IMG/VR virus record: IMGVR_UViG_3300030329_002264
Location: 1 to 43,945 of that record
Source of the DNA: a virus
Length of the DNA: 43,945 bases
Strand: one strand, 5' to 3'
Below the pieces are notes generated by a model, which saw nothing but the letters and a program-made list of their open reading frames with translations, was not told where the DNA came from and made no database searches. Below, piece after piece: positions 3,139-33,429 of the stretch. A program made the translations under genes and the position numbers. Numbering within the stretch: the first letter of the stretch is position 1; each line of letters starts with the position of its first letter.

Positions 3139-4044
3139 ATGGCTTTTGCAACATCCCCTGGGCATCCAACGTATACTGGGAATTTTATTCCTGAGATATG
3201 GTCTGGTAAGCTCATTGAGAATTTCTACGATGCCACTGTGCTCGCAGCAATCTCAAACACCGACTATGAAGGTGAAATAAAAAGTATGGGAGATACGGTT
3301 AACATTCGTACTACTCCTGAAATTACAATCCAAACCTATGTTAAAGGTCAAACTCTTACAGTAGAACAGCCTGATAAGCCAAAGCTACAGCTGCTTATTG
3401 ACAAGGGTGAGTATTTTGCATGCATCGAAGACGATGTAGACGAAGTACAAGCTGACATTAATATGATGGATCAGTGGTCTAAGGACGCTTCTGAGCGTAT
3501 GAAGATCAAAATTGACCAGCGTGTTTTAACTGACATGCTAACTGATGTACATGCTAGCAACAAAGGAATTAATGCTGGAAGAGTATCTGGCAATATTGAT
3601 ATTGGTGTAGCAGGTGATCCAGTTGCTCTTGATAAAACTAATGTCATCGAGAGCATTGTAAACATGGGTACAGTTCTTGATGAGGCTAACTGCCCTGAAG
3701 GTGATCGCTTCTTAGTGATTCCTGCAAAGGTAGGCGGCTTAATTAAGCAATCTGATCTTAAAGACGCTTCTATTACTGGAGACGGATCTTCCCCTCTACG
3801 TAATGGGCGATTAGGCATGATTGATCGTTTTACTGTTTACGTTTCTCATAACCTATATAAAAGTGGTTCTGAGTACAGCGTAATAGGCGGTCATAAAATG
3901 GGTTTCACATTTGCATCTCAAATGACAAATATGGAAACCATCAGGTCTGAAACAACTTTTGGTAACATCATTCGTGGTCTTCAAGTATACGGCTATAAAG
4001 TCGTTAAGCCTGAAGCTCTTGCCACGCTTGTGTGCACAGCATAA
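3139..4044 (+). CDS. Major capsid protein
   Basis: The product has 301 residues and is preceded by a near-perfect Shine-Dalgarno (TAAGGAGGT, ending about 8 bases before the ATG), consistent with very high expression. Family cues are the N-terminal FIPEIWSGKLIENFYDATVLA, the GDTVNIRTTPEITIQTYVK strand region, and a C-terminal part with GHKMGFTFASQMT and GNIIRGLQVYGYKVV. These are typical of HK97-fold coat proteins of the P22-like/podoviral group. It follows the scaffold and precedes a decoration-like protein and a terminator, as expected for a head operon. No signal for a protease or cleaved delta domain is seen, in line with a separate scaffold. Confidence 0.88.
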   Translation: MAFATSPGHPTYTGNFIPEIWSGKLIENFYDATVLAAISNTDYEGEIKSMGDTVNIRTTPEITIQTYVKGQTLTVEQPDKPKLQLLIDKGEYFACIEDDVDEVQADINMMDQWSKDASERMKIKIDQRVLTDMLTDVHASNKGINAGRVSGNIDIGVAGDPVALDKTNVIESIVNMGTVLDEANCPEGDRFLVIPAKVGGLIKQSDLKDASITGDGSSPLRNGRLGMIDRFTVYVSHNLYKSGSEYSVIGGHKMGFTFASQMTNMETIRSETTFGNIIRGLQVYGYKVVKPEALATLVCTA

Positions 4045-19794: not shown

Positions 19795-20889
19795 ATGAAA
19801 TACGTACCAAAAAGAAGAAAAGGTGGTTTTGCTAAAAGAAGAAGTTCTTTTGGAGGAACATCTGGAAAGACAGGATTAAATGTAGGTTTAGGTGTAAGCC
19901 AAGGAAGCGGGGCTACCAAATCCCCTATAACTCCTTCTACAGGTACTACAGTAACTCCAGGATCTTCTATAGCACTTGCATCTGCTGATACACCCAGCAC
20001 TGGGATTACTTACTCCAGCGCAGGAACTCAAGATCCTATAGGTGTTCAAGCTCCCGATTTAGCACTCACTACTTCTGGTCAACCTTCAACAGACCTTCCT
20101 CCTATGCTAGAAGCACTTATACAAGGCTCTAACCTTCCTCAGATAAATGATGCAACATTAGCTAATATAAATACAGGTATAGGTAGATCTAATATAAATA
20201 CTCCAGCGTTAAATTTTAGAATGCAGCCTGGGTCATGGGGTTATACACCTATGGTTGGTAGGTTTGAAGAGGGAGGCATGGTTGGCCCAGGTGGTGTACC
20301 GATACAAGAAGGACAACCTGTTGCTGGTAGTATGCCTATGCCTCAACCAGGCGGGGGAACGCCAACTCTTTCTCCAGAAGAAATGGAAGGAGCAATAGCC
20401 CAGACAGTACAAAGAAATCCTCAGGCAATACAACAGTTAGCTTCACAAATGCAATCTGCTATTGCTAGTGGCGAGCTTAATGCAGACCAAGTTAATATGG
20501 GTCTTCAGTTATGCCAATCAGCGTTACAAGATCCTAGTCTTTACCCACAATTAAGACAATATGCGGTTCAACAAGGGTTAGCTGAAGAAGATGAATTACC
20601 TATGGAATATGACCAAGGGCTTATATTTGTTTTGATTCTAGGTTGCAGGCTTGCCTTAGGACAACCTGTTCCTGGTTTACAAGCACCAGTTGCTGCGGGC
20701 CCTACAGAGCTACCAAGTATGGCATCAGGTGGGGCGTTACCTGAGCGTAGCCCTAATCCTGGAGGCGGTATACCTATAATGGCCCATGAAGGTGAATATG
20801 TTATTCCACAAGAAGTTGTAAAAGCTAAAGGCACAGATTTTTTCGATCAAATGGTACAGAAATACAATGGCTCAAATAAATCAATCTAA
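19795..20889 (+). CDS. Virion structural protein with basic N-terminus and conserved EYVIP motif
   Basis: A GGAGAAGTAGT site precedes ATG 19795. The 364-residue product starts with a basic stretch (MKYVPKRRKGGFAKRRSS), has a Pro/Gly/Ser/Thr-rich middle, then a helical Gln-rich part (SPEEMEGAIAQTVQRNPQAI). The C-terminus has GGGIPIMAHEGEYVIPQEVV, then KGTDFFDQMVQKY, a pattern I know from many marine phage structural proteins and tape-measure ends. The middle carries a hydrophobic patch (GLIFVLILGCRLALG) that looks unlike the rest, without proof of a frameshift. It is likely an inner virion or DNA-facing protein. It overlaps the following gene by 23 bases. Confidence 0.6.
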   Translation: MKYVPKRRKGGFAKRRSSFGGTSGKTGLNVGLGVSQGSGATKSPITPSTGTTVTPGSSIALASADTPSTGITYSSAGTQDPIGVQAPDLALTTSGQPSTDLPPMLEALIQGSNLPQINDATLANINTGIGRSNINTPALNFRMQPGSWGYTPMVGRFEEGGMVGPGGVPIQEGQPVAGSMPMPQPGGGTPTLSPEEMEGAIAQTVQRNPQAIQQLASQMQSAIASGELNADQVNMGLQLCQSALQDPSLYPQLRQYAVQQGLAEEDELPMEYDQGLIFVLILGCRLALGQPVPGLQAPVAAGPTELPSMASGGALPERSPNPGGGIPIMAHEGEYVIPQEVVKAKGTDFFDQMVQKYNGSNKSI

Positions 20890-21370
20890 CGTAGTAGAAT
20901 TTCCTCCAGAATCTTTTGAGCCATTGTTGCTCTCAACAAGGGAACAGTATGATAAATACTGGGCATACACTGTCCCACATATTGAAAAGTGTCTTAAGTC
21001 AACTACATACGGAGAACTAGACGCACAGCACATTTATGAACGCGGGCTTTCCGCCCAGAATTGGGTTATTATAGTAAAGTCAGATGCAGGGCCTGAACCT
21101 AAAGTAAAATTAGTTTTAGTGTTTGAACCTTTAGATTACCCAAACTTACCTGCTCTTAGCCTTGTTGTACTTGGTGGGTCAGACTTAAGAGATTTGTCTG
21201 ATAAATACTGGGATAAACTAAAAGGATGGGCGTATATGAACGGTGCTAGAGCTATTGAGGGATTAGTTGGAAACCCAGCTATGGAGCGAGTAATAAAGCG
21301 ACTCGGATTTAAACCAGTGTATACACAGATGAGATTAGATTTAACGGAGACTACAAATGACAAAAATTGA
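20867..21370 (+). CDS. GNAT-fold (acetyltransferase-like) protein, probable internal virion protein A
   Basis: The 167-residue product starts inside the end of the preceding gene. Its C-terminal half has the GNAT plan: a central strand (LPALSLVVLGGS), a helix (DLSDKYWDKLKGWAYMNGA), strand ARAIEGLVGN, helix PAMERVIKRLGFK and strand PVYTQMRLDL. The typical Q/R-x-x-G-x-G/A acetyl-CoA loop is not obvious, so it may be structural rather than catalytic. In gene order it stands where T7 has internal protein gp13, followed by membrane and transglycosylase proteins. Either it is carried in the head and ejected, or it modifies a virion or host protein; sequence alone cannot decide. Confidence 0.6.
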   Translation: MAQINQSNVVEFPPESFEPLLLSTREQYDKYWAYTVPHIEKCLKSTTYGELDAQHIYERGLSAQNWVIIVKSDAGPEPKVKLVLVFEPLDYPNLPALSLVVLGGSDLRDLSDKYWDKLKGWAYMNGARAIEGLVGNPAMERVIKRLGFKPVYTQMRLDLTETTNDKN

Positions 21371-22679
21371 TTTACTAAGTACAACTGCGTTAACTCCTGT
21401 TGTATATGAACCTTACACTCAACACGGTGGCAAAGTTAAAAGAGTTATAAGAACTGTAGCCCAAATTGTTATACCCTTTGTGGCAGCTCCTATTGCTGGG
21501 GCAATAGGTTTATCTGCAGCTATAGGCTCTACCCTTGCAGGTGCTGCAACAGGTGCAGTATTAGGCGGTGCATCAGCCGCATTAACAGGAGGAGACTGGA
21601 AAAAAGGTGCATTAATGGGGGGGCTTTCTGGAGGAGTCGCTGGCTACTTTAACCCAGGTACAACTACTACTGCAGCAGGAGTTAAGGTTGCTAATCAACC
21701 GTTCTCAGGTTCGATGTTTAGGCCTGGTGCAGGGTATTCACAAACAATGAGTACTGTTGGTAGCAATGTTACAAATGTAGGAGGCCAACTTGTAAATGCT
21801 AACACTGGAGTACCTTTAACTGCAGACCAGATAACTGCTTTTAATCAATCAGGTGCTTCAGTAATAGAGCCAGGGAGTTTTATATCTAACACTGGTGGTA
21901 ATATTGTTGCTACATCCCCTAGCGGAGCTACTGCTAACCTGTCAAACATACCAAAAGTCGGGGGAAGTGCTGCTACTGATGTAGTTACTGCAGGATTTAC
22001 AACACAAACTTTTAATGACATGAAGAATAGAATACTAAGTCCTGAAAATGCAGCTGATGTAGCTACGCAAATGGCAGTTAATGCTTTAGGTGCTACAATG
22101 GGCGTAGGTGATCCGACACCAGAGCAACAACAAATAATTGAGGAATCAAAGGCGAGACTTGAAGAACTTAAGACACAAGATAGAGCAGCTTATGATATGG
22201 CTATAGCCACTGCTAATAGATTTTTAACTGCTGCTAAACAATATGATCCGACTTATCTTGCAAGGCAAGGATGGATGACTGCTATGAACCAAGCTGCTGT
22301 CCAGAAACGTGATGCTTTGAGTAATATAAATCCAGCAAATGAGGCTCTACGTTCTGCAGAAGCAAGAAGATTTGATATAGCAGGAACTCAATCAGGTGCT
22401 TCAGCTTATGATAAAGGAACACTAATGGGGCTAAATACACAAAGTCAGTTATATAACCAAGCTGCAGCTGCTTATCCCAAAAGCGGTCTAACAGGTTATG
22501 ACCAAGCTCTAACAGGATTACGGAATACATATGCAGATATAAACAAAATACGTTCAGATGAGAAAAAAGCTTTTAACGAAATGTTTGGGGCATATTACTC
22601 TCCTAGAAAATATGCAGGTTTAAACCTGAATTTAGGTAATTCGGGGTTTTCTCTTACTAAAAATGCTCCAGCTGGATAA
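21357..22679 (+). CDS. Internal virion (ejection) protein with glycine-zipper membrane segment
   Basis: The 440-residue product overlaps the previous gene by 14 bases. Residues about 34-105 are hydrophobic and Ala/Gly-rich with small-residue spacing (IVIPFVAAPIAGAIGLSAA, GAATGAVLGGASAALTGG), typical of membrane-inserting phage proteins such as the T7 gp14 type. The C-terminal half is helical and charged (EQQQIIEESKARLEELKTQD, RSAEARRFDIAGTQSGAS). In T7-like phages the equivalent protein is stored in the head and makes an outer-membrane channel during DNA entry. That role is inferred from composition and from the gene order with the two large proteins that follow. Confidence 0.65.
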   Translation: MTKIDLLSTTALTPVVYEPYTQHGGKVKRVIRTVAQIVIPFVAAPIAGAIGLSAAIGSTLAGAATGAVLGGASAALTGGDWKKGALMGGLSGGVAGYFNPGTTTTAAGVKVANQPFSGSMFRPGAGYSQTMSTVGSNVTNVGGQLVNANTGVPLTADQITAFNQSGASVIEPGSFISNTGGNIVATSPSGATANLSNIPKVGGSAATDVVTAGFTTQTFNDMKNRILSPENAADVATQMAVNALGATMGVGDPTPEQQQIIEESKARLEELKTQDRAAYDMAIATANRFLTAAKQYDPTYLARQGWMTAMNQAAVQKRDALSNINPANEALRSAEARRFDIAGTQSGASAYDKGTLMGLNTQSQLYNQAAAAYPKSGLTGYDQALTGLRNTYADINKIRSDEKKAFNEMFGAYYSPRKYAGLNLNLGNSGFSLTKNAPAG

Positions 22680-22684
22680 ATAAA

Positions 22685-25105
22685 ATGGGGTGGTTTAAAA
22701 ATACATTTCTTCCTTTTGATTCTAACGCTCAATCAGGTGTTACTGCAGGTGTAAGAAGCTTTGCGGAACGTCAAAAAACAGGTGAAGAACTTGACAATCT
22801 TAAAAGGCAACAAGACCAAAGGTTCTTAGATCAACAAGTTGGCGTACCTTCTTTTAATAAAGCTGCTTTTGATAACTGGGCAGTACAGACACCTAACGTT
22901 GGACTTACTTTCAAAAACCAAGTTATCCACGATTTATACTATCCTGGTAGAGATAATACGTTAATAGACGATGGCGCTGGCGGTTTAGTTAGGCGTGACG
23001 CTGTTAGTACTGTACCTGCGTCTGTTCTTGATGCAGAAAGAATGAGACTTATTAACGAAATACCTGGTTCTCCAGAAGCTCCTATGTCTCTTGAAGAAGC
23101 ACAGGAAACGTTTGAAGAAATAGATCCTCCGACTTCTGTAGCTGGTTTGTATTATCCTGGTAGAGATAATATGTTAGTAAAGGAAAGAGAACCCGCAACT
23201 GAAGCCACTAAAGAAGAAACTACAATTGCTACCATACTAGGAACTACTCTTACTACTTCTAGTGATGACGATAAAGAAGCTCTTTTTTACCAAGACATGC
23301 CGTGGAAAATTATTCTGCGTAATGGTGTACCTATTGTTTCCCATAATAGGCAACCATATATTCTAGAAAGGTTTGAAAGCGATGATGGAGGTATGGTATA
23401 TCTAGTAAAAGATCTTAACGGAACTACACATGGGCAACTCCAAACACTTGTTAATAAAGGAATTCAGAGGGGTATTATTAATACTGAGTTAGGCAAAGCT
23501 GAATTAGAAGAAATAGATATATACGAATTAGCTAAAGGAAACTCTTATGTAAGTAGTGCACTACAAGAAATAGATGCTGAGAACTTTAAGACTGCAACTA
23601 CTAATCTAACTGTGTCAATAGCTAAATCGTTAGGTGTTGATGTAGGTGAGGCTCTAGCTTTGCTAGCTAATGAGTCCAGATTTGGAAATTATACTTGGAC
23701 AGGCAAAAAAGCTAAAGGTCCTTTACAAATAGAAGAACCAGCTTGGAAAGACGTTGTTGAATTTTATGCCAAGGATGGCAATAAACCAGCTGGCATGGGA
23801 GATGGCGAGTGGAATGTGCTAAAACAACAAGCTAAGTCAGTATCAGGTTCCTTTGGCTCTTTAGCTCAAAACGAAGCAAAAGCTATAACTGCAGCGCTAT
23901 TATATTTTAGGTTAATAGGGTTTAAAGGTGTACCCCCTGAGCTTATGGGTGCTGCGTATAACGATGGTTATCCTAAATTCTTAAAAGTAAAAAGTTTAGA
24001 TGAGGTAAAGAAATTTGCTGAAGGGCATACCTTAGCAAGTGTTACTAAATACAATGATTCTTACAATGGTTTAAAACGGTTCTTGCCAGATATATATAAT
24101 AATAAAGCTACTATAGGAAAGTATACATCTACGCCAAGTGGTAATAGATTCCTTACAGTTCCTAATATAACTGAAAGCCAGAATCCAAATATCACAAATA
24201 TTTTAGACAATCTTCCAGAACTTTCTGTATCTGATATTCAAATTGATGTGGATAAAAGTTTAGAAAAAGAAGGAGACGGAAAAGGAAAAGGAAAAGGAGA
24301 AGGAGAAGGAGAAGGGGGAGCAGAAACTGATATATCAGAAATTGACAGTACTAAAAAAGCAGAAGTTTACATTAGTAGGCTTGCAGATTTTCCTGATAAA
24401 AATTCATGGCAGTTTGAACATGCTCTAGAATATAGAGATGTACAGGCTCAGTTTGCTGAGAATGCTAGACTTGTAGGTAATACTACTGAATATAAAACAA
24501 AATTAGCAGAGCTTATGAAGATTGATACTATAATGTATACACAACTTGCCTATGAAGGACTTAATTCTTTTGATGATACAGGTAATCCAAGAAGGCTAAA
24601 TGAAGTGCTTAATGCTTTTACTGCAGGTAGGTTATTTGTACAACCTAGGACTGATGGGAAATATGATTTCATTCATGCCGATGGAACTTTAGCTCAAGGT
24701 GTACCACAAGGTATGAGCAGGAATGATGTAAAAATGTACACTCGTGCAATATTTGACAAACAGTTTAAAGCTTCAATGGAAGAAGCACTAGCAAAAAAGA
24801 ACGAAGCTGAATTTGAGCATGAGTTAGCTAAAGAGTTAAAGAACGTAGAAGGCAATATTGAAATAATAAAACAGTGGCTGGCTAGTAAAGGTAAAGATAT
24901 AAAGACAGAAGGCTTACCAGATGGGCACTTTTTAATAACTGATAAGATGACAAACGAAACAAAATATGTACAAACAAGCACTGAACAATATAAATCGGTA
25001 ACAGGCGAAACGAAAAATAGGGTTGTAGTTGATAATATTATAGACATAGATTTATCAAGTGATGGGGCAGATGAGCTTGCTTCTTGGTTAGGAATTCTTC
25101 AGTAA
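22685..25105 (+). CDS. Internal virion protein with lytic transglycosylase domain (806 aa)
   Basis: Starts six bases after the previous stop with a weak binding site. Residues about 310-430 form an SLT-type lytic transglycosylase domain: LGVDVGEALALLANESRFGN with Glu330 as expected catalytic acid, then TGKKAKGPLQIEE, and a C-terminal AAYNDGYPKFLKV. This enzyme would open the peptidoglycan for DNA entry, as T7 gp16 does. Two copies of LYYPGRDN occur at residues 84-91 and 155-162. A Lys/Gly/Glu low-complexity linker (GKGKGKGEGEGEGG) lies near residue 540. The C-terminal half is helical. It overlaps the giant gene by one base (TAATG). Confidence 0.78.
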   Translation: MGWFKNTFLPFDSNAQSGVTAGVRSFAERQKTGEELDNLKRQQDQRFLDQQVGVPSFNKAAFDNWAVQTPNVGLTFKNQVIHDLYYPGRDNTLIDDGAGGLVRRDAVSTVPASVLDAERMRLINEIPGSPEAPMSLEEAQETFEEIDPPTSVAGLYYPGRDNMLVKEREPATEATKEETTIATILGTTLTTSSDDDKEALFYQDMPWKIILRNGVPIVSHNRQPYILERFESDDGGMVYLVKDLNGTTHGQLQTLVNKGIQRGIINTELGKAELEEIDIYELAKGNSYVSSALQEIDAENFKTATTNLTVSIAKSLGVDVGEALALLANESRFGNYTWTGKKAKGPLQIEEPAWKDVVEFYAKDGNKPAGMGDGEWNVLKQQAKSVSGSFGSLAQNEAKAITAALLYFRLIGFKGVPPELMGAAYNDGYPKFLKVKSLDEVKKFAEGHTLASVTKYNDSYNGLKRFLPDIYNNKATIGKYTSTPSGNRFLTVPNITESQNPNITNILDNLPELSVSDIQIDVDKSLEKEGDGKGKGKGEGEGEGGAETDISEIDSTKKAEVYISRLADFPDKNSWQFEHALEYRDVQAQFAENARLVGNTTEYKTKLAELMKIDTIMYTQLAYEGLNSFDDTGNPRRLNEVLNAFTAGRLFVQPRTDGKYDFIHADGTLAQGVPQGMSRNDVKMYTRAIFDKQFKASMEEALAKKNEAEFEHELAKELKNVEGNIEIIKQWLASKGKDIKTEGLPDGHFLITDKMTNETKYVQTSTEQYKSVTGETKNRVVVDNIIDIDLSSDGADELASWLGILQ

Positions 25106-28100
25106 TGGCTATTAATGACCTAAACCCGAATCTAAAACCAGGTGTAAGGTCTTTTGATTCTCGTACCCTTAGTGCAATGGATGCATCTCCTAACATTCCT
25201 AGGGTTGTAGATAACTATTCTTTGTATGGCCCTTCTCAGATGCGGACCTCTACAGTTGATTCTGCTGCTTTAGCTGAGGTTCTTACTACCCCAGAGTCTA
25301 CTACTCTTGCAGGCCCCAGCGTTGGCTTTAACCCAGATACTGATGAGATATTTATAAATGGGTTTACGTTTAATGCTATGGATCATCAGACTGCTTTAGA
25401 TTCCGCTAAGCCAGAACTTTTTTCCCGAACTCCTACAGGACTTCCTAGTGGATTTGAGCCAGTATCTTCTGGTGAATATGGTACTTACCTAGACAACATT
25501 AGAAACCCCAATTGGCGAAGGCTAATGGCCAAAAACTGGCAGATAGGTTGGGATAATACACAGATGTTATTTGGTGCTGGCGCTGCTATGCTGGGAGATT
25601 TTACTGAGTCTGAAGAAGGGCTAAGTAAATGGGGCCGTGATATGATGAAGCAGCAGGAGGTAGAGCTAGGCTATAACCAACCCTACCAGAGAAGAGCGTC
25701 AGGTATTGATGATATTTCAACTGCTGCCGATTGGTTTTTTTCTAATCTAGCACAGTTTGGCCCATCTCTTGTTGAATCAATATCAGCTTTTATAATTGGT
25801 GGTTTAACAGCAACTGTTCAGACTGGGGGAGTAACAGGCCCAGTTGCAGGGGCCGCTGGTGGCCTTGGTGCTATGGTAGCAAAGAGTAGCGTTAAGAAAC
25901 ATATTAAAGAAAAATTGCTTCCCGAGTGGAAGAGTGGGAAAAAACTTGCAGACTTTGATGCACAGGATCAAAAGCTAATACGTATGTTGGCAGGTGCTAA
26001 TCTTGCTTTAGTCAACAACTATCGTACAGGTGTAAGCGATGTATACCTTGAGATGTTAGAAAATGCAGAAGAAAAAGTTCCAGGAACTATGGAAAGACTT
26101 ACGGCAATGACTTTTGGTGCACCTTACGCATTAGCAGATACATTAGGAGAAGCATTTCTTTTTTCTAGGTTCTTCAATGGTAAAATTGCACCTGGCCCAG
26201 GATTATTTAATCGTTTAAAGAGAGCAGGCGGGAGTACAGTTAGCGGTCTTTTAGCCGAAGGTGGTGCGGAACTTTCACAAGAAGCTACTGTTCTGGCTGG
26301 AGCAGGTATGTTTACCGACAAAGAGTTACTTACAGCAGAAAATGGATGGCGCTTGTTTGATGCTTTCATGGCAGGTGCAGGTGCAGGAGGTCCAATAGGC
26401 GGACTAGGCGGGCTTGTTAGACAGTCGCAAGAACCCACCGACATACTAAATACTACTGACCAAAGTACTAATCCTATACCTGTTGAGCAATCTACTCAAG
26501 AAGCTCTTCCGCCACCTACTGAGACGCAAGGAGAGTTGTTCCCTGATGCAGACTTAGGACAAAGAAGAACTTTTTTACCAGTTTCACCTAAACTGCAGAT
26601 AGATTCAGGAATGCTTAATCTAGGACAGGATCCTATAATGCAAACTCCAGAAACTATTGTTGATCCTGTTGAAGATTTCAAAGCACAAAACCAACAAAAC
26701 TTTGATAATGATATAGCTACAATAGAGAATGATGCATTGGCTAATTCTATTATTTCCGATTGGCAGTCAGCTAGAACTGAAACAGAAGTTAAAGCTGTAA
26801 TACTTAGACTGCAACAAGCTATGGGTACTATGCCTAGTGGTGCTCCTAAAGGGCAAAGAAGTTTATTCAGAGGAAGAAAGTCTGTTAATCCAGACACTAG
26901 AGAAGAACAGTATCAAAGAGCATACAAACCTAGAGATGATATGCCATTTACACAACAGGGTGAGTTTTTTCCTGACGATGATCTAGGACGAGGGCCACCT
27001 GTTGCTACAGATGAAGATATAGAAGTAAGAACGCCTACAAAAGCTGAACTAGAAGATGCAGGTCAAACGCGATTACCTTTAATATACCCATTAATTACTT
27101 ATGGTCCAGATAGACTTGGGGAGTTTGAGTTAAAAAGGAAAGGCACACAGAGGAGAAAAGCTGGACCTCAGGGTGGGGCTGGACCTCAAGGTGGACCTCA
27201 GGCTGGACCTCAGGCTGGACCTCAGGCTGGACCTCAGGCTGGACCTCAGGCTGGACCTCAGGCTGGACCTCAGGGTAGCTTTGATTTCCTAGATGATCCT
27301 AATGTACAAAAAACTTACAAAGGGAAAGCTACTGACGCTGAAACAAAAAAAGCTAATGCTGTACTTAAAAAAGCTAGAGAAAAAGCAGAGAAAGAAGCTG
27401 AAAGAAAAGCAGCCAAAGAAGCAGAGGATCAAAGGCAAGCAGAAAGAAAAGCTTTGGAATCTCTTATCGTAAGGATGGCAAGCAAGAACCCTCCTGCTTT
27501 CGATGACCTTACTAAGCAAGAGCGAACGTGGATAAGACTCAAAAAAGTACAAGAGTTAATAGACAAAGAAAAAGCTAAACGTGAAGATAAAGATAATAAA
27601 CTAAAACAACAAGAGGCTGCTAAAAAAGATAAAGAAGCTAAAGAAGCTAAAGAAGCTAAAGAAGATACACTAAAGAAAGGAAAGGGGAAAAAGGATGCCG
27701 TTCCAGAGTCAGGCCCAGATAAAGTGGATGTGGGCAAACAAGCCGAAGCTGGCAAAAAAGTTTCAGAAGGAGACACCAAAGGAGGCAAAACTTCCGATAA
27801 GAAAGCCAAAGAAGAAAAAGGGAAAGGTAGTGTAAAGCCAGAAACAACGCAGACAGAAGCCCTTCAAGTAACACCAGAAGTATATAAAGCTCTAGGCGCA
27901 CGAGTCTACGAACCATCAGATAAACTTCTAAAAGCTTTTCCTACAGTTAATGAGCTTGCACCACAGCTCCATAAGATAAAAGATGGTAAACTAGAAGAAG
28001 GTTATCTTGAACTTAGCGCACTAGCTACAAAACTTAAATCTCCAAAAGATGCAATGCTTATAGCTAAAGCACGATCTAAACCAAGAAAACTTGGACAAGA

Positions 28101-31100
28101 TGAACTTGGGCTACCCTCCTATGGGGAAACTAAATTTATAGAAACTTTAGACATTATAGATATAAGCTTTAAAACAAAAACAGACGGAGAAACTTCAGCT
28201 TTAGGATTTGATATACTAGAAAATGATACAACTCCAGATGTTCTCCGAGATGCTATTGTAGAAGTGGTTCCTTTTCTTATAGAAGATGGCGATTTAAATA
28301 TGAGTTCCACTTCCAATTGGGCTAGGTTAGTAGATTCATTAGACACTACTAGTATTAATATATGGGATCGAATTAGAGATAATCTCAAAAAGAAAAAAGA
28401 TATAGATGCATTAGAAAAAGTTTCTGAAGGTTTTGCAAGAGTTAAAAGTAGGATACTAGATGACCAAAGAGATAATGCAAAACTTGTCAAAGAATTCCCT
28501 ACTTTAGGTAGTCCTGCTGCGTTGGCAGAAAAAGTTGCTGATAATATTCAAATGCTTCTAGACCTAGGGCAGTTTAAACAGAGTGAACTTCTTAGAGAAA
28601 AAAGTAACGTATCCAAACTCTACAGGAATGCTAGCAAGTGGTATGCAGGTACTGAAGATATTAAGCCTGATCCAAACTATACAATAAAAGGTAGACCACT
28701 AAGCGATTTCTTTAATAATAAAGGCGAATTAAAAATAGCTGCTACGGCAGAAGGCTTTGCTAAACTAAGCGTTGGGGATCTAACTGATAAAAATAAAACA
28801 CGACAGCAAGGTGTGGGCGCAGTTACACCTGAAAAAGTCGCAGCAAAAAAAGAAGACCTGCTACGGAAAAACTATGCTAAGTACCAGCAAGCATCAATTA
28901 GCATGGGTGTTGAACCTGACCCTTATGATGATTGGTTGCAACCTCAAAGCGACACAAAAATGCTTAGGGTAGCACCTGATAGTGGCAAGGCTAATATATT
29001 AAAAGTATTAGATGCAGACAAAGTTGCTACTCCTATGGAGTTAGGTAGAGCAAAGTTACTTGCAAAACAAATAGTTTCTAAGTATCAGGTCAAGCCAAAA
29101 GTATCTGTGTATAGAAGCAAGGCTCATCTTAGAAGTAAAGACCCAGCATTGTACAACAGGTTAGCGCAAGGCAACGAACGTTTTGAGACTGACCCAGCCG
29201 CAGGTGCTGCTATAGGTGACACTGTTGTACTTTTCACTGATGCTATATACAGTGACAAACAACTAAAGTTCACATTAGCCCATGAAGCTTTGGGGCATTT
29301 TGGGTTACGAGCAATAGTTCCATCACAGGAACTTAATAAAGTTCTTACAAATATATACAACAATGATCCCCATATACGAACTGCAACTGATGAGTATGTA
29401 ACTGTTCATAAAGTTGGTAAGCTTGAAGCTATAGAGGAAGCAATAGCTAATCATTTAGCATATGTAGAAGGTAATACATTAGCAAAAATTTGGGAGGTAA
29501 TTAAAAAATATCTCCAGAAAGTAGGACTATTTAATGATACTAGTACTGCTCCTTATTGGGTTGGTCAGGTACGAAGATACATACGTAACGGAGAAATCCC
29601 TAGCATTACATCTATTGCTCAGATAGAGCAGAACATGAGGGAACAAGAAAACTCTGAGGTTGGCAGACTTTCCACTGCAACTGTTAGACCTGCATCAGAA
29701 GCTATATCAGCTATATCAACACAAAGTACTACAGTTAACCCTACTGTATTTAACAAAATTAAAGGTGGGGCGCGGCTAGCTGGGCAAGCTCTTGAAGAAG
29801 TCCAAACGCTAGATAATATAGCAGGCAAGAGCGCAGGTATAGGAAGTATATTTGAGACAATGAGAATACAAGCGTCTCAAGCAAAAGCTATCTTAAGTAA
29901 AATGGATGGTATGTTAGATATAATAAATAGAGCTAAATGGTGGGGTTCACCTTTTGGTAAACAAGCTTTATCTAATGAAGAATACAAACAAGTCAGTGAT
30001 ATATTAGCACATTCAAACTTATTTTTTGATGACAGTCCTAATAATACTGAAGCTAAAATCCGCGAAAAACCTGATTTGATAATTAAGAATTCAGTTGGCG
30101 AACCTATGTTAAATGAAGACGCATTAGGGGAAGCTTTAATAGAAAGTACATTATTACCAGAACAAATTGCTGAAGGTGTTGAAGTACGAAGAGGGCCTGA
30201 GCAAAAAACAACGTTTAGAATACAAGGGTTTAATCCTAAATATAAACTTAATGCTGACGGTACTAGACGGCAGGATGATAAAGGTCAGTTTATACCTGAT
30301 AATAGAGATGCTTTAGTCTATGAAGCCTATGTGCAAATGCGTAAAGCAATAAACTATGGTGCTGCTATGGTAGCACTAGGTAAATATAATGGTGTAGTGC
30401 AACGTCTTAATATGGACATGAAGAAAATTAGAGAACTTCATAGTGAAATAAAAGATGCTGATGTAGATGTCCTTAAAGAAATAGCAGAAGTGTATAGAAA
30501 AATTTATTATGATGGAGCCACATCAGGTGAAGGGTTTGAAAAGAAAGCGCTAAAGAAATCTATAGCTGACGCTGAAGCTTTTATAGTAGGAATCACTCGT
30601 GCTTTCTGGCAGGACGGTGTTATTACTGACCTTAAGAATATGAAGTACACAGAGAACCCAAGTGAAAAAGCTTTTACAGATAGAGCAATAAACCTTGTTA
30701 TCGACTGGAACAAAACTGATAAAGAGAAAATAAACCTAGGTAATATTATCGGAGGTTTAGAAAGAATGCGTAAGTATAACATTAATGAATCAGTTGTTAA
30801 GTCTAATATACAGCAGCCACTAATGAACTATGTGTTCCATGATACTCAAACTTTAAACGCACAAGTAATGGCAAAGAATACTGTGTACAAATCATATGTT
30901 CCATTCAGGCGATCAGGTGCATGGCAGTTGCGGTTTGACTTAGTAGATAGCCAAGGAAATGTTATAAGAATAAAGCCTAATACTAAAGCTGCGGCAGTTC
31001 ATGCTGCACTTCCTTACTTACAACATAATAATAAAGAAGCTTTACTTGATATCCGACAAGCATACGCAGACGATTTAGTATCAGAAAACGGTAGTGACTT

Positions 31101-33429
31101 TACATTCCAAATGCCATCTGAAGATGGTGAAGGTCAAGTTACTTTTACTGTACGTCCTTCTGTTAGTGCTACAACAGGCGGTTCACCTACAACTATGAAT
31201 ATGAACTATGATGATTTTGCATCCACGCTAGCTACATTGGGTGTTGATATGAATCTACAAGATAGGGAAAGTGTTGTACTTGCTTTAACTAGACAACATG
31301 AAAAAGCCAGAGGTAGGTTGCAGAAAGAAGGTACACCAGGGTGGGATGACGTTGTTCAAGCTAGCCAAGAATGGTTAGAAACTTCAGCTTCTATTGCTGC
31401 TAAGAATGAATACAGACATAGAATTGATGACATAATGAATGATACATCTCTTTGGAGAGGTAGCCTAAAGAAATTAAAAGATCTACGAAATGCATACTAC
31501 GCAGCAATAAGAACTGGCAATAAAGAAAATATATTAATACATGAAGAAGCATTTAATAAATACGCTCGTATATGGGTAGAAACTGCTGACATGGACGGAA
31601 CAACTTTTACGTACAAGTCTCATAGAACTAATAAAGAAATTACTCTAACCCCCCTAGGAAGAGGCGATCATTACAAAGAGAAAGCAGGTGGGCTATTAAC
31701 TTTCTATGCTCAGCTTAATGATATTGCTGTATCTGCAGAAGATATGTTGTCTAAAGGTCCTGCAGCTACATTCAAATCTGCTGCAGTACTTATGCAGTTA
31801 GGAGGTAATATTGCTACAGGTGCTATCAACAGTACATCATTAGCTACTATGTCTATACCTAGTCTTGCTACATATAACAGTAAAGTTGGCAAAGGCGGAG
31901 GGTATGGATGGGGTGCAGCAATGAATGCTATAAGGAAAGCTGTAGGTAATCTGTCTGGTACTAGATGGGGTGATCCTAATTGGATCGAAGACCAAATTAT
32001 ACTTAAAAGAGCATGGGGCAAATATGGATTAACTGAAGATGAAGCTCAGTTTTTATTCCGACAAACATCTCGCGGTGTTCTAGACGCTGCACTTGTTAAC
32101 CAATTGGTAGGTTCTTCTAGAGGAAACTTCTTTAAGAGCGGTACAGTTACATCACTTAGTAAAAAATGGATGTTCTTTTTTGCCTACACTGAACAGTTAA
32201 ATAGACGAGCTACTGCCCTTGCTACATACAGACTAGAGAAGGCAAGACGTTTAGCTGCTACCCCTGGGTTACAGGACTCTGACTTTACACTAGTTCCTGA
32301 AGGTGATCTAACAAACTACAATTCAGCAGATCACTCCCAGCTTGCAGCTGTAGAAGCTAAAGTTGTTGAGATAATTAATATGTCTCAAGGTGATTACGCT
32401 ATGTACAACAGACCTAGGATTGCAAGAGGTATGTGGACTCAGTACATATATATCTATAAACAATTCTCTGTTATTGCTACTCAGTTAATGAGAACTCTAC
32501 CTCCTTGGGGACGAGTGTATTACGCTAGTATGCTTATAGCTGCGGCAGGTTTAAAAGGTCTCCCAGGTGCAGAAGATGGAATGGATATTGTAGACACTAT
32601 ATTAAAGTTTATTCCTAATGTTAATATGCGACCATTAGAACTGGTATTAGCAGATATGTTTAACGGTATACTTCCAGGGTCAGCTGATTACTTTCTTCAT
32701 GGAGGACTAGATCATTTGCTAGGGGGGTATGGTACTGTTTCTACTAGAATGAGTTTAGGTGATTTGTTTCCAATGACAGGTATAGCACTTCCTGGAGCTA
32801 GTATCCCCCAAGAGCTAAAGAACTTTGCAGGTCCTTTATTTAGTGCGGCTCATCAGAGTATTAGTACATCTTATAATATAGTGAACTCTATTGGACAACC
32901 TGATGCTCTAAGGGCGTTCATAGTTGCAAATCAAAATAACCCTATGGCAGCTATTAGAGCATTGGCTGACACGTTGATGTATGATGAGACAGGTAGGATT
33001 GTGAATTCTAAAGGACAAGTTATAAGTGCAACAGCAAATTTCTGGACTAAGATATGGAGGTTGTTAGGGTTCTATCCTTTAGCGGCTACTCAGAATAACA
33101 GAGCAGTAAGGATGGGTACTAGATTAGTAGAACATTCTAAACAAGTTACAGCACCTTATGTAGATTCTTATATGAGGTCATGGCTTTCTGGTGATATCTC
33201 TGGTATGAATGAAGTTAGACATAGTGTAAGAGACCACAACATGTTGTACAAAAATACGCCATTTGAGATATTTGATTTTGATAAAAAGATAAAGAGGAAG
33301 AAAGACTCATTGCAGTTAAGTACATCAGGTAGGTTCTTAAAGTCTGCACCTAAGAATATGAGGGAGTATCTAGTAAATAATGTAGCTGAATTGTATGGTG
33401 TTTCAGATATAGACTTGGCAGGCGTTTAA
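25105..33429 (+). CDS. Giant polyvalent internal virion protein with metallopeptidase-like and LPD38-like domains (2,774 aa)
   Basis: ATG 25105 overlaps the previous stop (TAATG) and is preferred over an upstream TTG. Order of parts by residue: 140-290, a conserved virion segment (NWQIGWDNTQMLFGAGAAML) with hydrophobic and Ala/Gly stretches; 330-435, more membrane-like Ala/Gly helices; 470-730, a disordered region with repeated Q-x-x-[LF]-F motifs and the GPQA repeat; 740-870, a Lys/Glu/Ala coiled coil; about 1340-1470, a metallopeptidase-like domain with AHEALGHFGLR (His1393, Glu1394, His1398) and Glu1444-Glu1445 in AIEEAIANHLA; 1550-2100, helical; about 2160-2500, LPD38-like (LMQLGGNIATGAINSTSLAT, KKWMFFFAYTEQLNRRATAL). 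It is presumably ejected with DNA. Homology of the zinc-site region to known polyvalent proteases is inferred. Confidence 0.75.
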   Translation: MAINDLNPNLKPGVRSFDSRTLSAMDASPNIPRVVDNYSLYGPSQMRTSTVDSAALAEVLTTPESTTLAGPSVGFNPDTDEIFINGFTFNAMDHQTALDSAKPELFSRTPTGLPSGFEPVSSGEYGTYLDNIRNPNWRRLMAKNWQIGWDNTQMLFGAGAAMLGDFTESEEGLSKWGRDMMKQQEVELGYNQPYQRRASGIDDISTAADWFFSNLAQFGPSLVESISAFIIGGLTATVQTGGVTGPVAGAAGGLGAMVAKSSVKKHIKEKLLPEWKSGKKLADFDAQDQKLIRMLAGANLALVNNYRTGVSDVYLEMLENAEEKVPGTMERLTAMTFGAPYALADTLGEAFLFSRFFNGKIAPGPGLFNRLKRAGGSTVSGLLAEGGAELSQEATVLAGAGMFTDKELLTAENGWRLFDAFMAGAGAGGPIGGLGGLVRQSQEPTDILNTTDQSTNPIPVEQSTQEALPPPTETQGELFPDADLGQRRTFLPVSPKLQIDSGMLNLGQDPIMQTPETIVDPVEDFKAQNQQNFDNDIATIENDALANSIISDWQSARTETEVKAVILRLQQAMGTMPSGAPKGQRSLFRGRKSVNPDTREEQYQRAYKPRDDMPFTQQGEFFPDDDLGRGPPVATDEDIEVRTPTKAELEDAGQTRLPLIYPLITYGPDRLGEFELKRKGTQRRKAGPQGGAGPQGGPQAGPQAGPQAGPQAGPQAGPQAGPQGSFDFLDDPNVQKTYKGKATDAETKKANAVLKKAREKAEKEAERKAAKEAEDQRQAERKALESLIVRMASKNPPAFDDLTKQERTWIRLKKVQELIDKEKAKREDKDNKLKQQEAAKKDKEAKEAKEAKEDTLKKGKGKKDAVPESGPDKVDVGKQAEAGKKVSEGDTKGGKTSDKKAKEEKGKGSVKPETTQTEALQVTPEVYKALGARVYEPSDKLLKAFPTVNELAPQLHKIKDGKLEEGYLELSALATKLKSPKDAMLIAKARSKPRKLGQDELGLPSYGETKFIETLDIIDISFKTKTDGETSALGFDILENDTTPDVLRDAIVEVVPFLIEDGDLNMSSTSNWARLVDSLDTTSINIWDRIRDNLKKKKDIDALEKVSEGFARVKSRILDDQRDNAKLVKEFPTLGSPAALAEKVADNIQMLLDLGQFKQSELLREKSNVSKLYRNASKWYAGTEDIKPDPNYTIKGRPLSDFFNNKGELKIAATAEGFAKLSVGDLTDKNKTRQQGVGAVTPEKVAAKKEDLLRKNYAKYQQASISMGVEPDPYDDWLQPQSDTKMLRVAPDSGKANILKVLDADKVATPMELGRAKLLAKQIVSKYQVKPKVSVYRSKAHLRSKDPALYNRLAQGNERFETDPAAGAAIGDTVVLFTDAIYSDKQLKFTLAHEALGHFGLRAIVPSQELNKVLTNIYNNDPHIRTATDEYVTVHKVGKLEAIEEAIANHLAYVEGNTLAKIWEVIKKYLQKVGLFNDTSTAPYWVGQVRRYIRNGEIPSITSIAQIEQNMREQENSEVGRLSTATVRPASEAISAISTQSTTVNPTVFNKIKGGARLAGQALEEVQTLDNIAGKSAGIGSIFETMRIQASQAKAILSKMDGMLDIINRAKWWGSPFGKQALSNEEYKQVSDILAHSNLFFDDSPNNTEAKIREKPDLIIKNSVGEPMLNEDALGEALIESTLLPEQIAEGVEVRRGPEQKTTFRIQGFNPKYKLNADGTRRQDDKGQFIPDNRDALVYEAYVQMRKAINYGAAMVALGKYNGVVQRLNMDMKKIRELHSEIKDADVDVLKEIAEVYRKIYYDGATSGEGFEKKALKKSIADAEAFIVGITRAFWQDGVITDLKNMKYTENPSEKAFTDRAINLVIDWNKTDKEKINLGNIIGGLERMRKYNINESVVKSNIQQPLMNYVFHDTQTLNAQVMAKNTVYKSYVPFRRSGAWQLRFDLVDSQGNVIRIKPNTKAAAVHAALPYLQHNNKEALLDIRQAYADDLVSENGSDFTFQMPSEDGEGQVTFTVRPSVSATTGGSPTTMNMNYDDFASTLATLGVDMNLQDRESVVLALTRQHEKARGRLQKEGTPGWDDVVQASQEWLETSASIAAKNEYRHRIDDIMNDTSLWRGSLKKLKDLRNAYYAAIRTGNKENILIHEEAFNKYARIWVETADMDGTTFTYKSHRTNKEITLTPLGRGDHYKEKAGGLLTFYAQLNDIAVSAEDMLSKGPAATFKSAAVLMQLGGNIATGAINSTSLATMSIPSLATYNSKVGKGGGYGWGAAMNAIRKAVGNLSGTRWGDPNWIEDQIILKRAWGKYGLTEDEAQFLFRQTSRGVLDAALVNQLVGSSRGNFFKSGTVTSLSKKWMFFFAYTEQLNRRATALATYRLEKARRLAATPGLQDSDFTLVPEGDLTNYNSADHSQLAAVEAKVVEIINMSQGDYAMYNRPRIARGMWTQYIYIYKQFSVIATQLMRTLPPWGRVYYASMLIAAAGLKGLPGAEDGMDIVDTILKFIPNVNMRPLELVLADMFNGILPGSADYFLHGGLDHLLGGYGTVSTRMSLGDLFPMTGIALPGASIPQELKNFAGPLFSAAHQSISTSYNIVNSIGQPDALRAFIVANQNNPMAAIRALADTLMYDETGRIVNSKGQVISATANFWTKIWRLLGFYPLAATQNNRAVRMGTRLVEHSKQVTAPYVDSYMRSWLSGDISGMNEVRHSVRDHNMLYKNTPFEIFDFDKKIKRKKDSLQLSTSGRFLKSAPKNMREYLVNNVAELYGVSDIDLAGV
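27163..27276 (+). repeat. 12-bp in-frame tandem repeat encoding GPQA/GPQG
   Basis: The core GGACCTCA occurs nine times between 27163 and 27276. After the first copy, the other eight follow exactly every 12 bases from 27181 to 27265, with unit GGACCTCAGGCT (Gly-Pro-Gln-Ala) and GGT variants at the ends. It lies in the disordered part of the giant protein (residues about 687-724). Near-identical DNA copies mean recent expansion, so copy number probably differs between relatives. The product would be a flexible spacer between a motif-rich region and a charged coiled coil. Confidence 0.9.

Follow-up and report, generated by a model that had tools for sequence, protein, structure and literature searches.

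The question raised by this locus is whether an HEALGH sequence inside a giant phage protein marks the active site of a metallopeptidase and, if so, to which family that peptidase belongs. The locus lies in an IMG/VR virus record (IMGVR_UViG_3300030329_002264), the whole of which, 43,945 bases, was analysed and is referred to here as the window.

A giant protein at the end of the late module

The late module of the window is podophage-like and is encoded on the + strand. It comprises genes for a head-tail adaptor/portal, a major head protein (PHROG 267), a structural protein, tail fibres and an internal virion protein. The giant open reading frame (positions 25084-33429, + strand) closes this structural module, and the replication genes come next, on the opposite strand. 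It directly follows the gene of a protein weakly matching a transglycosylase (22685-25105, + strand; phrog_4067, E=0.0045), a likely partner of the giant in ejection. Three further late proteins (19795-20889, 20867-21370 and 21357-22679), none of which matched a PHROG, lie between the internal virion protein and the transglycosylase-like protein and are possibly ejection proteins as well. The giant has 2781 residues when read from a TTG and 2774 when the ATG at 25105 is taken as the start; this ATG and the 3' end of the upstream gene overlap. TTG-based residue numbers are thus the ATG-based numbers plus 7; the original prediction counted from the ATG.

Comparison with relatives by blastp coverage delimited a conserved N-terminal block (about residues 60-480; 25261-26523, + strand), a variable, low-complexity middle (about residues 481-1300; 26524-28983, + strand; coverage ∼0) and a conserved C-terminal block (about residues 1500-2770; 29581-33393, + strand). 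The C-terminal block is a PLxRFG-type region, for which the NCBIfam PLxRFG/tail-700 model gave E=1.2e-22 but stayed under its curated cut-off. The variable middle is Lys/Glu-rich with AGPQ repeats, and relatives share hardly any of it; the region is taken up by a tandem GPQA-type repeat at 27157-27276 (residues 692-731) and by long Lys/Glu-rich stretches. The peptidase-like domain sits between this variable linker and the conserved C-terminal block, and in blastp coverage it is the block of the giant most widely shared among relatives.

The HEXXXH motif and the downstream Glu pair

The core of the domain spans residues 1315-1476 (29026-29511, + strand), as supported by three alignments and by the AlphaFold models described below. 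Its HEALGH motif (29281-29298, + strand) contains His1400, Glu1401 and His1405 in TTG numbering, or 1393, 1394 and 1398 from the ATG, and is helical in both models. The Glu pair, within EEAIA, occupies residues 1451-1452 (1444-1445 from the ATG; 29434-29439, + strand) in the predicted second C-terminal helix, 51 and 52 residues past the first His. Both elements had been named in the original prediction, and both hold up: its HEXXXH-spaced HEALGH at residue 1393 begins at base 29281 when counted from the ATG at 25105, and its EEAIA 46 residues further on corresponds to the distance from His1398 to Glu1444, with EEAIA beginning at base 29434. A conserved Asp (1386 from the TTG; 29239-29241, + strand) follows the third strand and precedes the first His by 14 residues.

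The giant contains a single HEXXXH and no HEXXH. Its composition predicts 0.015 occurrences of HEXXXH, and only 0.14% of shuffled versions gave HEXXXH followed by EE 40-68 residues on. Because the pattern is also conserved in relatives, its origin by chance is untenable.

Conservation among relatives

A tblastn search of named phages with the window domain returned weak matches only. All five phages examined (Aeromonas phiARM81mr, a Vibrio phage, two Bacteroides phages and a Dolichospermum phage) carry HE-x-x-x-H-Y-G-L and a downstream EE. Searches of viral contigs with single sequences, either the window domain or the C-terminus, found nothing, and a close relative of the window is therefore absent from the contigs searched. 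The five-phage alignment, used as a query where single sequences had failed, recovered 180 relatives in IMG/VR.

Of the relatives recovered in this motif-based search, 80 loci were kept; all of them lie in large open frames, and in all 80 an EE pair, which was outside the search pattern, occurs 49-63 residues past the first His. A second search used only the alignment upstream of the motif, removing motif-selection bias; it returned 86 relatives, of which 80 were kept. HEXXGH and EE are both retained in 80/80 of these loci, several of which are near-identical, so that they do not amount to 80 independent events. In five of them the site is kept across an in-frame insert, with the motif following the insert in one (L156) and the EE following it in four (L164-L167). 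A search of bacterial genomes for the domain yielded 16 distant loci only.

These in-frame inserts (L156:4214-4580 and L164:4415-4990, and also in L165-L167 and L242) occupy two different loops of the domain. Each opens with a Tat-signal-like SRRxF(L/F)KG sequence, and the ligand residues persist past the insert in L156 and L164-L167. The Pfam TAT_signal family matched one of 18 giants scanned (E=0.0026), a set that included L164.

A full-length alignment of 18 giants (5206 columns) contains 10 invariant columns, six of which make up the HEXXXH/EE site. A seventh is the Asp described above, which is present in 81/95 sequences of a larger alignment of the domain. Five positions never vary in that larger alignment, namely the two His, the Glu and the Gly of the motif and the second residue of the Glu pair; the first Glu of the pair is found in 94/95. 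Because an EE pair was a condition for including a row, the unbiased measure of conservation is given by the two 80/80 counts. The original prediction expected both His and Glu1444 to be conserved in homologues. Both His are kept, but the invariant Glu (95/95) is residue 1445 rather than 1444 (94/95).

Predicted structure of the domain

Two AlphaFold models of the domain were generated, from alignments of 46 and 95 sequences, with mean pLDDT values of 83 and 91 (90.6), respectively. Both contain a helix, three strands, the HEXXXH helix, two helices and the EE helix, an order that appears zincin-like in the models and matches the core described by Iyer et al. for polyvalent metallopeptidases: an N-terminal helix, three strands and two C-terminal helices. 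Foldseek comparison of the first model with solved structures gave no significant match, the top two hits being zincins (E 0.6-0.85); with the second model, a trimmed core, it gave no zincin and only noise. Foldseek against viral models matched large polyvalent proteins. A sequence search against solved structures returned nothing meaningful, and no Pfam family matches the domain.

Relationship to phage HEXXH domains and polyvalent proteins

Profile comparison with hhalign aligned the domain to the HEXXH domains of crAss-like and Rhizobium phages over 121 columns, with a probability of 76%. The score of 38 compares with at most 16 in the controls (40 shuffles and 15 reversed), although the HEXXH profile was built from few sequences, its Rhizobium part having gained none from viral contigs. 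By this measure, the HEXXH domains in the giants of crAss-like phage cr10_1 and Rhizobium phage RHph_TM3_14A are the closest kin outside the HEXXXH group. In them the gap from HE to the second His is one residue shorter than in the window domain, and the Gly two residues after that His is missing. Their Glu falls in the column of the second EE residue. Because the single Glu of the crAss domain is placed in this way, the third metal ligand of the window domain is likely to be the second Glu (29437-29439; 1452 from the TTG, 1445 from the ATG) and not the Glu1444 originally proposed. The window major capsid protein (3139-4044) is 53% identical to that of RHph_TM3_14A, whose giant has HEATH, with HEXXH spacing, at the corresponding place (locus L233). 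As this capsid relative carries the shorter motif at the matching position, the two spacings appear to be variants of one peptidase module.

The domain composition of the relatives is consistent with this placement. They carry LPD38, LPD39, LPD5, LPD1, ART-PolyVal, InPase, MuF_C and methylase/helicase domains, and 13/18 giants match the PLxRFG family; in the window copy the sub-cut-off PLxRFG match is the one polyvalent-type domain. Since relatives carry LPD38, ART-PolyVal, InPase and methylase/helicase domains, the window giant is classed as a phage polyvalent protein as Iyer et al. use the term. The part of the original prediction that holds is a metallopeptidase-like site with HEXXXH spacing, here shown to be conserved, in a phage polyvalent protein.

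Iyer et al. 2017 (PMC5512222) already reported HEXXXH for one set of polyvalent-protein metallopeptidases. The window domain resembles that class in its HEXXXH motif, in the Glu within the second C-terminal helix, in its three-strand core and in its location in a giant multidomain phage protein whose relatives have LPD, ART and methylase companions, a comparison made with the class description and not with individual sequences. Three features of the class are found here: the His/Glu/His motif in 80/80 loci, an EE pair in a predicted helix, and a predicted helix-three-strand-two-helix core. Because that report already states HEXXXH for one metallopeptidase set, the window domain is one more case of a class known since 2017 and not a new class. 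The HEXXXH/EE pattern is real and widespread in phages.

Other virion proteins offer a looser parallel. Phage P1 DdrB and the N4 virion RNA polymerase are also large virion proteins with a metallopeptidase-like domain. Both have HEXXH (HELGH in P1 DdrB; for the N4 protein, PMC12633501), unlike the HEXXXH of the window. Neither P1 DdrB nor DarB was significantly matched by the domain profile. The ArdC-type MPTase-PolyVal family (PF18818) is similar in having a Glu-rich EELVAEL helix after its motif and in being a metallopeptidase-like domain of mobile-element proteins, but its motif is HEXXHS and its Glu pair follows about 27-30 residues on. It was rejected as a candidate, with no Pfam match and an hhalign match to the core that was not significant; a shallower profile aligned the upstream QTNL..P.LY stretch to MPTase-PolyVal with 23% probability, and this alignment was gone with a deeper profile. 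A SprT-type relation was likewise rejected, no profile match being found.

Function of the site

The site is best explained as the active centre of a zincin-like HEXXXH metallopeptidase module of the giant polyvalent protein, acting in self-processing within the virion or after ejection, a reading to which we assign a probability of roughly 0.7. From conservation and homology, His1393, His1398 and Glu1445 (ATG numbering) would bind zinc, and Glu1394 would activate water as the base. Gene order and family membership suggest that the giant travels inside the capsid and leaves it together with the DNA and the transglycosylase-like protein. The peptidase may cut its own polypeptide, either within the virion or shortly after entry, and so release the modules. 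Such self-processing, which Iyer et al. proposed for polyvalent metallopeptidases (PMC5512222), is favoured as the most likely role on account of that proposal and of the position of the domain, with a flexible variable linker on one side and a conserved block on the other; cleavage of host proteins would be the second choice. One observation weighs on the other side: the giant N4 virion RNA polymerase carries an HEXXH domain and is packaged without being processed (PMC5512222), which speaks against self-cleavage as an obligatory step in the virion. Furthermore, the N4 structural study, in the part available, describes the HEXXH domain and no protease activity (PMC12633501), and none of the HEXXXH members found has a known activity, metal or cleavage product.

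The original prediction assigned the site to the dipeptidyl peptidase III (M49) type, and the shared HEXXXH spacing and following EE do recall that family; an hhalign score of 29.8, above the shuffled controls, was even obtained, over 20 columns only. At the level of sequence profiles this assignment is refuted. PF03571 finds no match in the window record, whereas the same profile does match a Bacteroides control and 30/31 genomes of one family. Alignments of the window domain to M49 cover 6-20 columns around the motif, with no similarity beyond it, while the whole-domain match goes to the phage HEXXH domains. In addition, the M49 members fetched, Bacteroidales proteins with HECLGH, have EE(T/A)RA 27 residues on, compared with 49-63 in the relatives of the giant. 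M49 membership is hardly tenable on these data.

Two other readings concern what the site does. The domain could be an active metallopeptidase that serves as an effector, cutting host proteins, for example defence proteins, after injection instead of its own polypeptide. Iyer et al. raised this possibility for polyvalent metallopeptidases (PMC5512222), and the wide sharing of the domain among relatives would fit it. However, no substrate is known, and the site is kept across very different hosts, for which a target in the phage's own protein seems an easier explanation than variable host defences; we consider the effector reading unlikely. A more specific version, in which the HEXXXH domain is a dedicated post-injection protease on host proteins that arose from a phage HEXXH domain by a one-residue insertion reshaping the active site for a new substrate, is highly doubtful. 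It could also be argued that the site binds metal with no peptidase role, as a structural zinc site or in another metalloenzyme, since the available part of the N4 polymerase paper (PMC12633501) notes HEXXH in radical SAM-domain proteins as well and shows no proteolysis for the N4 domain. Against this, the Glu after the first His is invariant; it would be catalytic and not a ligand, and a purely structural site would have no need of such a residue. The homology also runs to phage metallopeptidase-like domains, making a purely metal-binding role rather unlikely. The preferred reading thus remains a self-processing peptidase module.

In a large and abundant group of giant phage proteins, no part is more conserved than the HEXXXH domain, and yet the domain is without a Pfam family. 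The 95-member alignment, together with the second Glu as the likely ligand, points to direct mutants with which to ask whether, on entry, these proteins cleave their own chain or proteins of the host.
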